Positions 9,352 to 13,950 of a stretch of 36,903 bases of DNA are shown here, in pieces (positions within the stretch are counted from its first letter, which is position 1; every line of letters begins with the position of its first letter). The notes beneath the pieces were generated by a model. That model was not told the DNA's origin, searched no databases, and was given only the letters and a program-made list of their open reading frames with translations. Made by a program: the position numbers and the translations under genes. The stretch spans positions 1 to 36,903 of the forward strand of contig JAJTXQ010000023.1 of assembly GCA_021462855.1 (NCBI GenBank). The letters are read 5' to 3'. Source of the DNA: Dehalococcoidia bacterium. Lineage in GTDB: Bacteria; Chloroflexota; Dehalococcoidia; DSTF01; JACRBR01.

Positions 9352-9512
9352 GCGTCTCCCGTGGTGACGGACGTGCTTCGAGATCCGGCGCCGCCTGCAC
9401 CATAGTGCTTGCCACGGCGCCGCCGCATCGCCGATGTCAAGCGCGCCGCGCTGCAGCGCTCTCTTCCCGGCTGCCGCGCTCTCAATTCACAAGGAAAGGC
9501 CATGACCGTCCC
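9352..9512. other. Divergent intergenic region before the tail-like cassette
   Basis: These 161 bp separate the minus-strand membrane protein from the cassette. I see no clear promoter. A four-codon reading frame (9502-9516) follows AAGGAAAGG, and its stop overlaps the ATG of the first cassette gene. Confidence 0.4.
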
Positions 9513-9926
9513 ATGACCTGGCCCGAACCCCTCACTACCGCAATCGAAGCGTTCTCCGAACGCCGCTTCCGCGCCACCGTCCTCGCCGCCGACGGCCGTG
9601 CCGTCGCATCCGTCGACTCGGTCGTCAACTCCGCGCGCATCGGCGCCTTCGGCAGCATGACCACCCACGGCGAGGGCGGCAGCCCGCGCCAGCGCCAACG
9701 CGCCCTCGTGTTGCTCGTGCGCGCATCGCTCGCCCACGCTGCCGCGCTGGGCGTACGCCACGTCGAAACGCGCGCGCCGGCGCGCATGGCGGCCTTCGCC
9801 GCCCGCATGACCGGCTTTCACGGCGAGCGCCGGCCAGACGGCACGATCCGATTTTCCGGGGACCTCGCCGCCATCCGCACCCACGCACTGGACACGACCG
9901 ATGCCAACGGCGACCTTTTACCCTAA
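9513..9926 (+). CDS. Small GNAT-like protein at the head of a phage-tail-like cassette
   Basis: The 137-residue protein has the outline of an N-acetyltransferase fold. There is a central helix RQRALVLLVRASLAHAAALG, then a strand VRHVETRAP, then MAAFAARMTGFHGERRPDGT, similar to the GNAT tail (helix, strand, GF-containing loop). The acetyl-CoA P-loop is not clear, so catalytic activity is doubtful. The ATG overlaps the stop of a four-codon ORF (ATGA at 9513-9516). The C-terminus overlaps the next gene by 26 bp. Codon use favours GCC and CTC, unlike neighbours. Confidence 0.55.
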   Translation: MTWPEPLTTAIEAFSERRFRATVLAADGRAVASVDSVVNSARIGAFGSMTTHGEGGSPRQRQRALVLLVRASLAHAAALGVRHVETRAPARMAAFAARMTGFHGERRPDGTIRFSGDLAAIRTHALDTTDANGDLLP

Positions 9927-10908
9927 CGCCTATCACTCAATCGACCTGCTCACGCCGAACGATTGCATCGGCGATCAGTTCGACTGCGGCGTCTTTTATC
10001 TCGGCGCGCCAAAGAACATGCTCCGCCGCGCCTTCCTCTCCTTCGACGTGTTCGGCCCCGCCGCCGAAGGGCGGCCCCTCACACCCGCCGACGCGCTCAC
10101 CGCCGCCGACCTGCTCACGAGCTCCGGCACATTGCTCGGCACCACCGGCTTCGCGTGTACGCTCAGCCGCATCGACCGCGCCGGGTACGACCCGACGCGC
10201 GCCACGTGGAACACCTACGACGGGACGAACGCCTGGGCATCGCTCGGCGGCGACTTCAACACGCCGACGCTCAGCCTCACATCGCCCACGGTGCCCCTCG
10301 CACCCTTCACCGTCAGCAACCTCCTCCCCTTCGTCACCGACGCCATCGCCTTGCGCGGCGGCCTCGTGCGCTTCGCCTTCTACGCCGTCAACGAAGCCCC
10401 CGGCACAACCGCGCTCTGGGCATGCGATGACGGCTCCCTGCCGACGCGCCCGCGCCTCCGCGTCACATGGGAAGCCGCCGACCCCACGCCCATCGCCCCG
10501 CCGCTCCGAGGCCTCGGCGGCCTTTTGCCGGCGCCGGCCGCGAACCCCTCGCGGCCCACGCCTCCGAGCCACCCCGCGCCCCCCTCGCGCCTGTCGGCGC
10601 GGTCCTCAACCGCCGGCGTGGCCGGCGGACACCCACGGCCTACGGCCAGGGCGGCGATGCCGCCAACTGCTCAACCGCCGGCGGCGCCGGCGGACACTCA
10701 CGGCCTTCGGCCCGGGCGGCCTTGCCGCCAACTGCTCTACCGCCGGCCGCGCCGGCGGACACTCACGGCCTTCGGCCCGGGCGGCGATGCCGCCGACTGC
10801 TCACGGCCTTCGGCCCTCACGGCCTTCGGCCCGGGCGGCGATGCCGCCGACTGCTCACGGCCTTCGGCCCTCACACGACCACCCAGCAGCGAAAGGAACA
10901 CACCATGA
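9901..10908 (+). CDS. DNRLRE-like structural protein with repeat-encoded tail
   Basis: Of 335 residues, about the first 195 form a beta-rich domain. LRRAFLSFDVF, DRAGYDPTRATWNTYDGTNAW and a closing RPRLRVTWE resemble DNRLRE/TGF-propeptide-like domains found in secreted and phage structural proteins. From about residue 200 the sequence is Pro/Ala/Arg-rich. From 10605 onward it is encoded by 65-bp tandem repeats whose length is not a multiple of three, so each copy is read in a new frame. The stop overlaps the next start (ATGA at 10905-10908), which supports the frame shown. The tail is unlikely to be folded. Confidence 0.6.
   Translation: MPTATFYPNAYHSIDLLTPNDCIGDQFDCGVFYLGAPKNMLRRAFLSFDVFGPAAEGRPLTPADALTAADLLTSSGTLLGTTGFACTLSRIDRAGYDPTRATWNTYDGTNAWASLGGDFNTPTLSLTSPTVPLAPFTVSNLLPFVTDAIALRGGLVRFAFYAVNEAPGTTALWACDDGSLPTRPRLRVTWEAADPTPIAPPLRGLGGLLPAPAANPSRPTPPSHPAPPSRLSARSSTAGVAGGHPRPTARAAMPPTAQPPAAPADTHGLRPGRPCRQLLYRRPRRRTLTAFGPGGDAADCSRPSALTAFGPGGDAADCSRPSALTRPPSSERNTP
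10605..10876 (+). repeat. Tandem 65-bp repeat array (three full, one short, one partial copy)
   Basis: Full copies lie at 10605-10669, 10670-10734 and 10735-10799. A 54-bp variant is at 10800-10853 and a partial copy at 10854-10876. Each full copy holds inverted pieces: GCCGGC twice around a short spacer, GGCCTTCGGCC, and GGCGGCGATGCCGCC. Copies differ by a few bases. No stop codon occurs in any + strand frame across the array. Confidence 0.85.
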
Positions 10909-11540
10909 ACCTCGCACAGATGCGCGCCGCCGTGCGCCAAGACCTGCACGACGAAGATTCCGGCAACTACCGCTGGACAGATGCCGTGCTGGAACGCCAC
11001 ATCACCCGCGCCGTTGCCGAATTTTCACTCGCCAGCCCGCTCGAACAAAAGACCACCCTGCAGACCACGGCCGGCTCGCGCGATATCTCGATCGCCACGC
11101 TCACCGACCTCATAAAGATCGAAGCCGTCGAGTGGCCCGTCGGCGAATTCCCACCGGCGCGCGTCGGTTTCAGCCAGTGGCAGACCACAATCACCCTCGA
11201 CATCGTGAACGCCCCGTCCGCCGTCGAGAACGTCTACGTCTACTGGACGAAGCCCCACGCGATGCTCACCGGCAGCACGACAGTTCCTGTCGCGCTCGAC
11301 CACATCATCGCCGCCGGGGGCGCGGCGTACGCCGCGCTCGACTGGACGAGCTACGCGGCAAACCGCGTCAACGCCGGCGGCGAGGATGTCTGGGGCCGGT
11401 ACAAGGCGTTCGGCGACGAGCGCCTCCGCTACTTCCGGCGCGAGTGCAACCGCGTTGCCCGCGCCAACGCCGTGCGGCAAAACCGCATGTACACCACCGA
11501 CGCGCCATCCGTATTCGAACAGAACCGCGTCAAGTACTGA
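10905..11540 (+). CDS. Phage connector/adaptor-like protein
   Basis: The 211-residue protein resembles phage head-tail adaptor proteins. It has an N-terminal helical start (LAQMRAAVRQDLHDED, RWTDAVLERHITRAVAEFSL), then a beta section (GSRDISIATLTDLIKIEAVEWPVG) and a helical C-terminus (IIAAGGAAYAALDWTSYAANRVNAGG). A GAAAGGAAC ribosome site precedes the ATG, which overlaps the previous stop. This frame is also open backwards through the repeat array. The assignment to a connector is by overall pattern, not by a diagnostic motif. Confidence 0.6.
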   Translation: MNLAQMRAAVRQDLHDEDSGNYRWTDAVLERHITRAVAEFSLASPLEQKTTLQTTAGSRDISIATLTDLIKIEAVEWPVGEFPPARVGFSQWQTTITLDIVNAPSAVENVYVYWTKPHAMLTGSTTVPVALDHIIAAGGAAYAALDWTSYAANRVNAGGEDVWGRYKAFGDERLRYFRRECNRVARANAVRQNRMYTTDAPSVFEQNRVKY

Positions 11541-11541
11541 C

Positions 11542-13506
11542 ATGCGCTCCCTACACGCCGACCTCCTCGCCGCGCAGCAGACGCGCTCCTACGAGCCCTA
11601 CATCTCTTGCACCGTACAAAACACCGTCGAGGCCGTGCGCCGCCTCGACTACACCATCCTCGATACCACCAGCAACACCAGCGCGCGGCACGACATAGCC
11701 GTCGCCGCAGACGGCTCCGTGACGCGCGTCCGCATCGACGCGGGCGCGCTCAAACAGCAGCGCGTCCCCCCGGACAGCTCGCCGAACTGGACGACATGGA
11801 ACACCCGCGCCGCCGGCATCGGCACCGAGTGCGCATGCGCCGCGCGCGGCGCGCGCGTCGGCATGGTCTACAACGTCGGCGTCACCATCTACCTCAAGGA
11901 AAGCACCGACAGCGGCCAGAACTACGGCGCCGCCGTCGCCATCATCAACGCCGGCGGAGCCATCACCGACCTCGCCGTCGCCTACAAGAACACCACCGGC
12001 GACCTCGGAATCGCCTGGACGGAAGCCGCCACCCTGCGGATCATCATCCGCAACGCCGGCGTCTGGACAGCCACCCTCACCAGCCCCGCCACGTTCGCCA
12101 CGCTAAACGGAGTAGCCCTCACCTACGGCCTCGACTGGGATATCCTCATCACCGGCACCGAAATCACCACCACCCGGCCCACCGTCTGGACGGTCATCTA
12201 CGGCGATGGCAACGACGCCGCCGCCGCCACATGGACAACGCCGCGCATCCAGCAGCAAGCCGAGGCGGCCGCCGCCACAACCTTTTCGTGCCCGTTCCTC
12301 GCGTGGGTCGACACCTACCGCGCGAATTATCTCGAGACAGCCACCTACACCGGCGGAGCCCCCCGCGTCTATCGGATGTACCTCCAACCGTCGCTCTCGT
12401 ACGACCACGGCGCGTACACATGGCGATCGCCGCTACCGTCCAACCAAGCCCCGGCGCAAGGCCTCGCCCTCGCGGCCGAGCCCAGCGCCACCTACACCTA
12501 CGAGAGCCATCCCGCCCTCGTGCAGCGCGCCGACACGCGCCTCGTCACGCTCGACCTGGCCGCCGACGTGCTCGCCGTCGACCTGGACGAAGATACGCGC
12601 CGCGTACGCTGCACCGTCGAGCTCAACAACGACGCCGGCCAGTACGCCGGCCCGCCCGCGCCGCTCGCGCTCGGCAACCTCATCGACCTCCGCTTCGGCT
12701 ACCGCACCGTCTCCGGCAACCGCACGACCACCATGCCGCTCGGCCTCTGGGTCGCCGCGATGGAGCACCGCCGCAGCGGCGGGCGCTCCACGCTGCTCCT
12801 CACGCTGGAATCTGGCTGGGAGCGCCTTCGCCGCTCGAGCCAGCGCACCAGCGTCATCCACACCACGAGCCACTACCGCGCCATCCTCAGCGCGATCATG
12901 GCCCGCGCTGGCCTCGAGATGACAACCAACGGCTCATCCACCCGCGCCGGAGCCATCACCCCCCAACTCACCATCGACCCCGCCCAGCACGGCCACAGCG
13001 CCGCCACGGGCGTACTGCAGTTCCTCGCCGACCGGCTGCGAATGATGGCCGCCTCCACCGTGCGGCTCACCGAGCCCCTCACCGGAGACGCCTCCACATA
13101 CACATTCGGCACAGCCCACCCCATTTACGGCCTCGAGGTCCGCACCGCTGCCGCGCCGCTCAGCGCCGCGCAGACGTTCGGCGCGGCGGCCTACGGCCAC
13201 GCCGTCGACCACGCGCTCGCCCGGCACGGCCTCGCGCCCCACGACATCCTCCGCGACCTCACCAGCGCCACCGGGAGCGCCGCCGGCAACACCGCCGTCG
13301 CCCACCTGCGGCAACGCGAGCTCGACGCCTCGCACGGCCGCCTTATCGTGCCGCCCAACGTCGGCCAGGAGCTGCTTGACGTGATCACCTTCACCGACGG
13401 CCTCGTCGCCTCCGGCGACATCAAGCGCCGCGTGATGGGCATCCACTGGCGCTACGACAAACGCCGCAGCGTCTACCAGCAAGAACTACGGTTAGGCCCG
13501 CTATGA
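11542..13506 (+). CDS. Large phage tail hub/baseplate-like protein
   Basis: The protein has 654 residues. An N-terminal region (1-60) is followed by a section up to about 330 with sialidase/BNR-like strands (YLKESTDSGQNYG, VAYKNTTGDLGIAWTEA). From about 345, RRVRCTVELNNDAGQYAG, LGNLIDLRFGYRT, LLLTLESGWERL and a C-terminal DVITFTDGLVASGDIKRRVMGIHWRYD resemble the repeated beta-barrels of tail hub proteins. It starts one base after the connector-like gene and ends in an ATGA overlap with a 63-residue ORF. No tape-measure, capsid or terminase gene is nearby. The role in host attachment is inferred. Confidence 0.6.
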   Translation: MRSLHADLLAAQQTRSYEPYISCTVQNTVEAVRRLDYTILDTTSNTSARHDIAVAADGSVTRVRIDAGALKQQRVPPDSSPNWTTWNTRAAGIGTECACAARGARVGMVYNVGVTIYLKESTDSGQNYGAAVAIINAGGAITDLAVAYKNTTGDLGIAWTEAATLRIIIRNAGVWTATLTSPATFATLNGVALTYGLDWDILITGTEITTTRPTVWTVIYGDGNDAAAATWTTPRIQQQAEAAAATTFSCPFLAWVDTYRANYLETATYTGGAPRVYRMYLQPSLSYDHGAYTWRSPLPSNQAPAQGLALAAEPSATYTYESHPALVQRADTRLVTLDLAADVLAVDLDEDTRRVRCTVELNNDAGQYAGPPAPLALGNLIDLRFGYRTVSGNRTTTMPLGLWVAAMEHRRSGGRSTLLLTLESGWERLRRSSQRTSVIHTTSHYRAILSAIMARAGLEMTTNGSSTRAGAITPQLTIDPAQHGHSAATGVLQFLADRLRMMAASTVRLTEPLTGDASTYTFGTAHPIYGLEVRTAAAPLSAAQTFGAAAYGHAVDHALARHGLAPHDILRDLTSATGSAAGNTAVAHLRQRELDASHGRLIVPPNVGQELLDVITFTDGLVASGDIKRRVMGIHWRYDKRRSVYQQELRLGPL

Positions 13507-13694
13507 GGCGCGATGCCATCCCGCGCGCCCCCGCCGCGCTCCGCCGCTACCTGCTCGCCGCCGGAACGCTGCACCTCCCCCTCCGCACCAGAGCCCACGG
13601 CGCGCGCTGGCAACTCGCGCACCGCGTTACGCACCAGTGCGGCACGCCGGCGTGCCTAAACGTGCCGCTCACCCGAGGGAGAAACCACCCGTGA
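13503..13694 (+). CDS. Small basic protein in the tail-like cassette, unknown
   Basis: The 63-residue product is rich in Arg, Ala and Leu and has two cysteines (HQCGTPAC). It is joined to its neighbours by ATGA at the front (13503-13506) and GTGA at the back (13691-13694), the same coupling used across the cassette. This is the main support. The composition could also arise from a chance frame, so it may be only a translational bridge. Confidence 0.4.
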   Translation: MRRDAIPRAPAALRRYLLAAGTLHLPLRTRAHGARWQLAHRVTHQCGTPACLNVPLTRGRNHP

Positions 13695-13918
13695 CGCAAC
13701 AGACGCCCGAACTCCGCCACGGCATCCTAAAGGCGTTCGACGCCCCCACCTACACCGCCACCGTACAATTCACCGGGTCCCTGCTCCTCTACGTTGCCGC
13801 GATCCCCGTCGCCCGCGACATCGCGGGCGCCGAAATGACCGCCGGGCGAAAGGTCGCCGTCGCCTTTTTCGACCCCCTCAACCACTCCGACGCCGTCCTA
13901 TTCGCCGTCTGGACATAG
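13691..13918 (+). CDS. Small OB-like/spike-like protein, last gene of the tail-like cassette
   Basis: The 75-residue protein has strands GILKAFDAPTYTATVQF, LYVAAIPVARDI and GRKVAVAFFDPLNHSDAVLFAVW. This outline fits the small OB-fold barrels found in phage spike/baseplate proteins and their relatives. The GTG start follows GAGGGAGAAA at good spacing and overlaps the previous stop. An MBL gene with its own -10 starts 33 bp later, so the cassette ends here. The assignment is by pattern only. Confidence 0.55.
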   Translation: MTQQTPELRHGILKAFDAPTYTATVQFTGSLLLYVAAIPVARDIAGAEMTAGRKVAVAFFDPLNHSDAVLFAVWT

Positions 13919-13938
13919 CGCACCCCCGCCGCGCTTGC

Positions 13939-13944
13939 TAGCGT
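13939..13944 (+). promoter_or_regulatory. Leaderless-type -10 box of the MBL/folP/folK operon
   Basis: TAGCGT is followed by GACGCC and the GTG at 13951. The six-base gap repeats the leaderless spacing seen at other genes here. Confidence 0.35.
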
Positions 13945-13950
13945 GACGCC

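Follow-up and report, generated by a model that had tools for sequence, protein, structure and literature searches.

RcGTA, the alphaproteobacterial type I gene transfer agent (GTA), has a long tail with a tape measure and a tube. By published criteria for viriforms, a GTA has proteins derived from caudoviricetes, forms caudovirion-like particles, and is endogenised in the host genome, often at several loci (PMC9662315). Furthermore, its genome is not fully packageable and is inherited mostly vertically, and its particles package mostly random host DNA and deliver DNA to other cells (PMC9662315). Experimentally documented GTAs are few and are mostly alphaproteobacterial (PMC9662315, PMC12946183).

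We analyzed a window of 36,903 nucleotides (the whole of the stretch presented here) from a Dehalococcoidia bacterium. Positions 9513-13918 of the window hold a run of genes that, by their ORF coordinates, are all on one strand and are tightly packed. Judging from comparisons of sequences, this cassette quite probably encodes the tail tip of a virus-like particle that is ancient and domesticated in Dehalococcoidia, is inherited vertically, and is GTA-like, with its genes at multiple loci. Because three of the published criteria apply to it and because the particle is known here from its genes, we call it GTA-like and not a GTA.

The cassette and its proteins

The features of the cassette are:

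9513..9926, + strand: first ORF of the cassette, 137 aa, labeled GNAT-like (unproven)
9901..10908, + strand: DNRLRE-like beta-sandwich protein (conserved part 9901-10500; repeat-rich C-terminal extension)
10605..10874, + strand: GC-rich 65-bp tandem repeats, about four copies, within the 3' end of the gene for the DNRLRE-like protein
10905..11540, + strand: head-tail adaptor of the SU10_adaptor family (PF24175)
11542..13506, + strand: tail hub, 654 aa (from its predicted fold)
13503..13694, + strand: small basic ORF, 63 aa (unsupported)
13691..13918, + strand: OB-fold protein, candidate base of a tail spike or plug (from homology and predicted fold)

The first-pass annotation of this DNA described six overlapping genes on one strand. 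The tight run and its overlaps stand (26 nt at 9901/9926, and 4 nt at each of 10905/10908, 13503/13506 and 13691/13694), but the adaptor and the hub are separated by a 1-nt gap (11540/11542), and one of the six genes, the small basic protein at 13503-13694, is unsupported. We found no homologs of this 63-aa ORF and no match to it in Pfam or PHROGs. Because it lacks homologs and because the hub and OB genes are nearly adjacent in most relatives (median spacing 18 nt, and within 200 nt in 49 of 56), it is probably not a gene of the particle system.

At the head of the cassette, the 137-aa ORF has a homolog only in one other genome (G005), with 47% identity and at the equivalent position. It has no match in Pfam or PHROGs, and its description as GNAT-like is unproven. 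The DNRLRE-like label of the next protein fared better: its orthologs precede the adaptor in 5 other genomes of the order and keep the W..Y..W..GGDF pattern, although the protein has no match in Pfam. We infer that it is a candidate surface-binding or sugar-binding fibre. The exact core of the 65-bp repeat within its gene was absent from every other genome's locus that we compared; the repeats were seen in this genome only.

The coding strand of 9400-13950 has third positions that are strongly C-rich (C 0.57-0.68, G 0.19-0.30), and the C-rich stretch is sharply bounded. This is not seen in the TerL, portal, or capsid genes of the same genome, and it varies among orthologs. We considered this composition as a sign of recent transfer but dropped the idea: because the C-richness varies among orthologs, it decides nothing.

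The protein that was described as connector-like (10905-11540) matches Pfam's SU10_adaptor (PF24175, E = 5.4e-10) with 40.5 bits, against a cut-off of 27, and on this sequence evidence it is a real phage neck protein. The adaptor family is present in 111 of 294 genomes of the class, often adjoining the hub. In a tblastn comparison, neither the hub nor the adaptor matched any INPHARED phage.

Neither the hub nor the OB protein has a match in Pfam or PHROGs, and no match was confirmed when the hub was compared to IMG/VR as a single-sequence query. An AlphaFold model of the hub, which was built from an alignment of 36 orthologs, has a pLDDT of 91 and a pTM of 0.89. Its structural matches include 3d37_B (TMt 0.72), 1wru, and 9gtr_q (Z = 25.6), and its propeller domain matches fucose lectins (Z = 24-25), with sialidases also being similar. 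Among the matches listed, there was no clear structural alignment that spanned the hub and the propeller together. As modeled, the hub is a tail hub of the Mu gp44/gp27/VgrG type, in agreement with its earlier description as hub-like, and a six-bladed beta-propeller is inserted into it (about residues 42-335). The OB protein, which adjoins the hub, is 48-74% conserved, and its AlphaFold model (pLDDT 88.6) fits the label OB-like. The best fold match was to the P2 gpV spike (E = 8.4e-4); T4 gp5 was lower, and other OB folds had similar scores. In its modeled fold the protein resembles a spike base, and we consider it a candidate for this role.

Head and packaging genes on other contigs

The first-pass annotation noted that capsid, portal, and terminase genes were missing. 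This is correct for the window, but the genome has these genes on other contigs. In relatives with compact clusters, the neighbors of the adaptor, hub, and OB genes are an HTH protein, the portal, a coiled-coil scaffold-like protein, and an HK97 capsid, with TerL nearby. We made profiles of the head genes from these relatives and ran them against the window's own genome, which has single copies of the capsid (C41:46177-47061; phrog_212, E = 1e-75), of TerL (C36:104187-105539), and of the portal, which runs from C36:106000 to the end of the contig and continues on C50. There is a scaffold-like ORF at L124:11636-12103 (E = 2e-31) and a TerS-like ORF at L122:13612-13938; a Dehalogenimonas-like member of the TerS family matches phrog_370, a terminase small subunit (7e-5). 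A relative's portal matches phrog_64 (8e-33), and TerL matches TerL phrogs and has invariant nucleotide-binding and nuclease residues (12 sequences). The group with TerL and the portal also holds an HTH ORF and, before TerL, a single-TM ORF. We considered whether the latter is a holin and found only a weak match, to a PHROG of unknown function.

These genes form three groups, which lie on separate contigs of the window's genome:

Group A: TerS-like protein, single-TM protein, TerL, HTH protein, and portal
Group B: scaffold-like protein and HK97 capsid
Group C (the window): DNRLRE-like protein, adaptor, propeller-hub, and OB protein

All three loci lie among housekeeping genes: one is flanked by luciferase-like and aconitase genes, one lies between glutamine synthetase and gyrB/dnaE, and one has an epimerase upstream and MBL/FolK/PTPS downstream. 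There are no integrase or replication genes in the window's cassette, and none were recognised among the scanned neighbors of the other two loci. These results support one of the suggestions of the first-pass annotation, that the cassette belongs to a GTA-like particle with further parts encoded elsewhere.

We recognised no genes for a tube, a sheath, or a tape measure, and found no lysis gene in the window's genome. In another genome (G034), a protein with a C-terminal Amidase_2 domain lies directly after the OB gene (L140:8939-10264); this is a possible release gene.

The PDB includes structures of RcGTA. When we searched PDB sequences, no chain matched the capsid or hub profiles; the portal profile matched only a phage portal (9gb3), and the TerL profile matched only phage terminase nuclease domains.

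Could the particle have a different job, such as delivering toxins or proteins, serving as a decoy, or killing relatives, with little or no DNA packaged for transfer? Contractile injection systems and tailocins have hubs and spikes of the same folds, and sequence cannot reveal the cargo. However, the terminase, with its invariant active-site residues, is inherited together with the portal, the scaffold-like protein, and the capsid, and a sheath or tube is not among the recognised genes. We consider a different job to be unlikely. A tailocin would have tail proteins without head and packaging genes, so the co-inheritance of capsid, portal, and terminase also disfavors the earlier suggestion of a tail-derived particle.

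Distribution, inheritance, and phage relatives

All 8 genomes of the family and all 18 of the order have the hub, usually as a single copy; the portal and TerL are each present in 17 of the 18. The flanking genes are conserved within the family. To look for the block and its neighbors in related genomes was a check proposed in the first-pass annotation. These observations bear on whether the cassette might be a chance run of unrelated ORFs or a phage contig that contaminated the assembly. Spurious ORFs are common in GC-rich sequence, and the cassette does have its own strand composition, but since every genome of the order has orthologs and independent assemblies agree on the flanking genes, we give this explanation practically no credence.

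Across 288 genomes of the class, we found the hub in 141, the portal in 144, and the capsid in 127; 105 genomes have all three and 142 have at least two. The three genes co-occur (Fisher p < 1e-35). The gene set is absent from about half of the class and is mostly single copy where present. In three closed Tepidiforma-type chromosomes (including Tepidiforma flava), the genes are spread across 202-243 kb, too far for a phage-sized unit to carry all of them together. Dehalogenimonas-like genomes have them within a cluster of about 11 kb.

In other classes of the phylum, we found 10 capsid-positive genomes. Four genomes from other classes (loci L417, L418, L419, and L420) carry the capsid and the portal, and TerL in 3 of the 4, with no recognised hub. 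That related head genes occur in a few Chloroflexota genomes outside the class hints at an origin that is wider or older still.

We built gene trees for the hub, capsid, portal, and TerL from 45 genomes, with taxonomic family labels as the host reference. In each of the four trees, families were monophyletic in 8-10 of 10 cases. The trees are correlated with each other (Mantel r = 0.32-0.78; 0 of 2,000 permutations reached this), and the members of a family share flanking synteny at both the capsid locus and the window's locus. The capsid trees were the least congruent (between-family r = 0.19-0.32), and some capsid replacement appears to have occurred, for instance in family f4. Capsids of families f4 and f3 that lie on long or misplaced branches (L130, L131, and L126) suggest replacement.

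The genes are under purifying selection in relatives: close pairs have dN/dS of 0.01-0.32. Saturation affects more distant pairs, among them the window's own; the window's hub and its nearest relative gave a dN/dS of 0.80, but at 48% identity and 90% GC3 this value is uninterpretable. Furthermore, the hub has full-length open frames of 638-690 aa over much of the class. A prophage remnant, which was another of the earlier suggestions, would be an old phage insertion that was broken up and is decaying. The head genes are clearly derived from phages (the capsid is up to 42% identical to those of free siphophages), and decay has happened in Dehalococcoides-type genomes, where the N-terminal part of the portal lies beside the C-terminal part of the hub and the capsid is gone. 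For the window's lineage, however, the open frames, the low dN/dS in close pairs, the conserved flanks, and the co-varying gene trees make a remnant very improbable.

In the Dehalococcoides-type remnant at L057:16463-18755, the portal fragment is followed directly by the hub fragment and the OB gene; the scaffold and adaptor are missing as well, and TerL is kept on the opposite strand. In these genomes the system has decayed to a fused remnant, which is a natural case of loss.

Among INPHARED phages, TerL matched only one, Bacillus phage vB_BboS-125 (32% identity). In IMG/VR, hundreds of contigs, mostly of 4-15 kb, have these capsid and portal genes. We considered the possibility that all of these contigs were chromosomal and dropped it, as some bear integrase and replication genes. 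Specifically, nine contigs have integrase or O-like replication genes beside the same head genes; on L244:6221-7611, L245, L267:6210-7538, and L226, integrase and/or O-like replication genes lie beside TerL-portal-capsid. Counted apart from these nine, a 27-kb IMG/VR contig has a serine recombinase gene just upstream of a portal fragment (L152:4936-7292).

All nine of the contigs fall outside the window's clade (support 0.998 for the portal and 0.75 for the capsid), which implies the coexistence of two lineages, one of temperate phages and one that is domesticated. Because this sister clade has integrase and O-like replication genes, the gene family is not purely domesticated, and the sister-clade relatives are probably small temperate phages of Dehalococcoidia. 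This raises the alternative that each genome has its own prophage, due to repeated infection by related temperate phages; the hundreds of short IMG/VR contigs would fit with this as well. But linked integrase or replication genes were seen only in the sister clade, the genes of the window's clade are mostly single copy and occupy the same chromosomal sites in relatives, and in closed genomes they are too far apart for a prophage. Repeated infection thus seems quite improbable. The first-pass annotation named two observations that would count against a domesticated cassette, namely orthologs always within complete prophages and dN/dS near one. In the window's clade the orthologs lie outside prophages, and dN/dS is far below one in the closely related pairs.

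Proposed working and comparison with known systems

Under our preferred explanation, a domesticated GTA-like particle, the scaffold and the capsid would build a head on the portal, and TerS and TerL would fill it with DNA by headful packaging. Because the genes are dispersed and do not form a single packageable unit, the packaged DNA would be mostly host DNA. The adaptor, the hub, and the OB protein would then cap the portal, forming a very short tail; we propose that it is very short because we recognised none of the genes for a tube, a sheath, or a tape measure. The propeller and the DNRLRE-like protein may bind envelope glycans of a related cell, to which the DNA would be delivered after the particle's putative release.

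Of the published criteria for GTAs, three describe what we found. The proteins derive from caudoviricetes (capsid to phrog_212, a relative's portal to phrog_64, the adaptor to SU10_adaptor at 5e-10, and TerL to TerL phrogs). The system is fully endogenised at several loci, on separate contigs of the window's genome and 200-243 kb apart in closed chromosomes. And inheritance is mostly vertical, given the monophyly of families in four trees (relative to family labels for the hosts), the correlation of the trees, and the synteny. A further criterion, that the genome does not fit in full into the particle, very likely applies as well, given the dispersal of the genes over more than 200 kb.

We lean towards the view that these genes represent a new and independently domesticated family of GTAs that have a tubeless tail on a propeller-bearing hub. 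About half of the sampled Dehalococcoidia would have it, cultured Tepidiforma among them and probably Dehalogenimonas as well. Our search of the open literature (subscription papers and preprints were outside it) turned up no GTA described from Chloroflexota, Tepidiforma, Dehalogenimonas, or SAR202. If our explanation is correct, then this widespread, selected, and dispersed particle system is an additional and likely independent domestication, and it would give slow-growing lineages a concrete means of exchanging genes. A sister clade that still looks like temperate phages would open the domestication step to study. Also, because these genes are on hundreds of short IMG/VR contigs, host DNA may account for some of the entries in viral databases.

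Like RcGTA (Rhodogtaviriformidae), the Dehalococcoidia element has the head, packaging, and tail proteins of tailed phages in host genomes, at several loci and with mostly vertical inheritance (PMC9662315). Unlike RcGTA, it is found in another phylum and has no recognised tube or tape measure. The GTAs of Bartonella (BaGTA) and Brachyspira (BhGTA, or VSH-1) are independently domesticated (PMC9662315), as this element would be, in unrelated hosts. They are experimentally proven, whereas the Dehalococcoidia element, in this respect also unlike RcGTA, is known from its genes.

Among free phages, Bacillus phage vB_BboS-125 has the similar TerL (32%) but is a 58-kb phage. Phage SU10 and similar podophages are alike in their adaptor, which is of the SU10_adaptor family, and a relative's capsid weakly matches SU10_MCP; in contrast, the genes described here are chromosomal and dispersed, without accompanying replication or integrase genes. 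Finally, the predicted fold of the window's hub is like that of the Mu gp44, T4 gp27, and VgrG hubs, but with the insertion of a six-bladed, lectin-like propeller.
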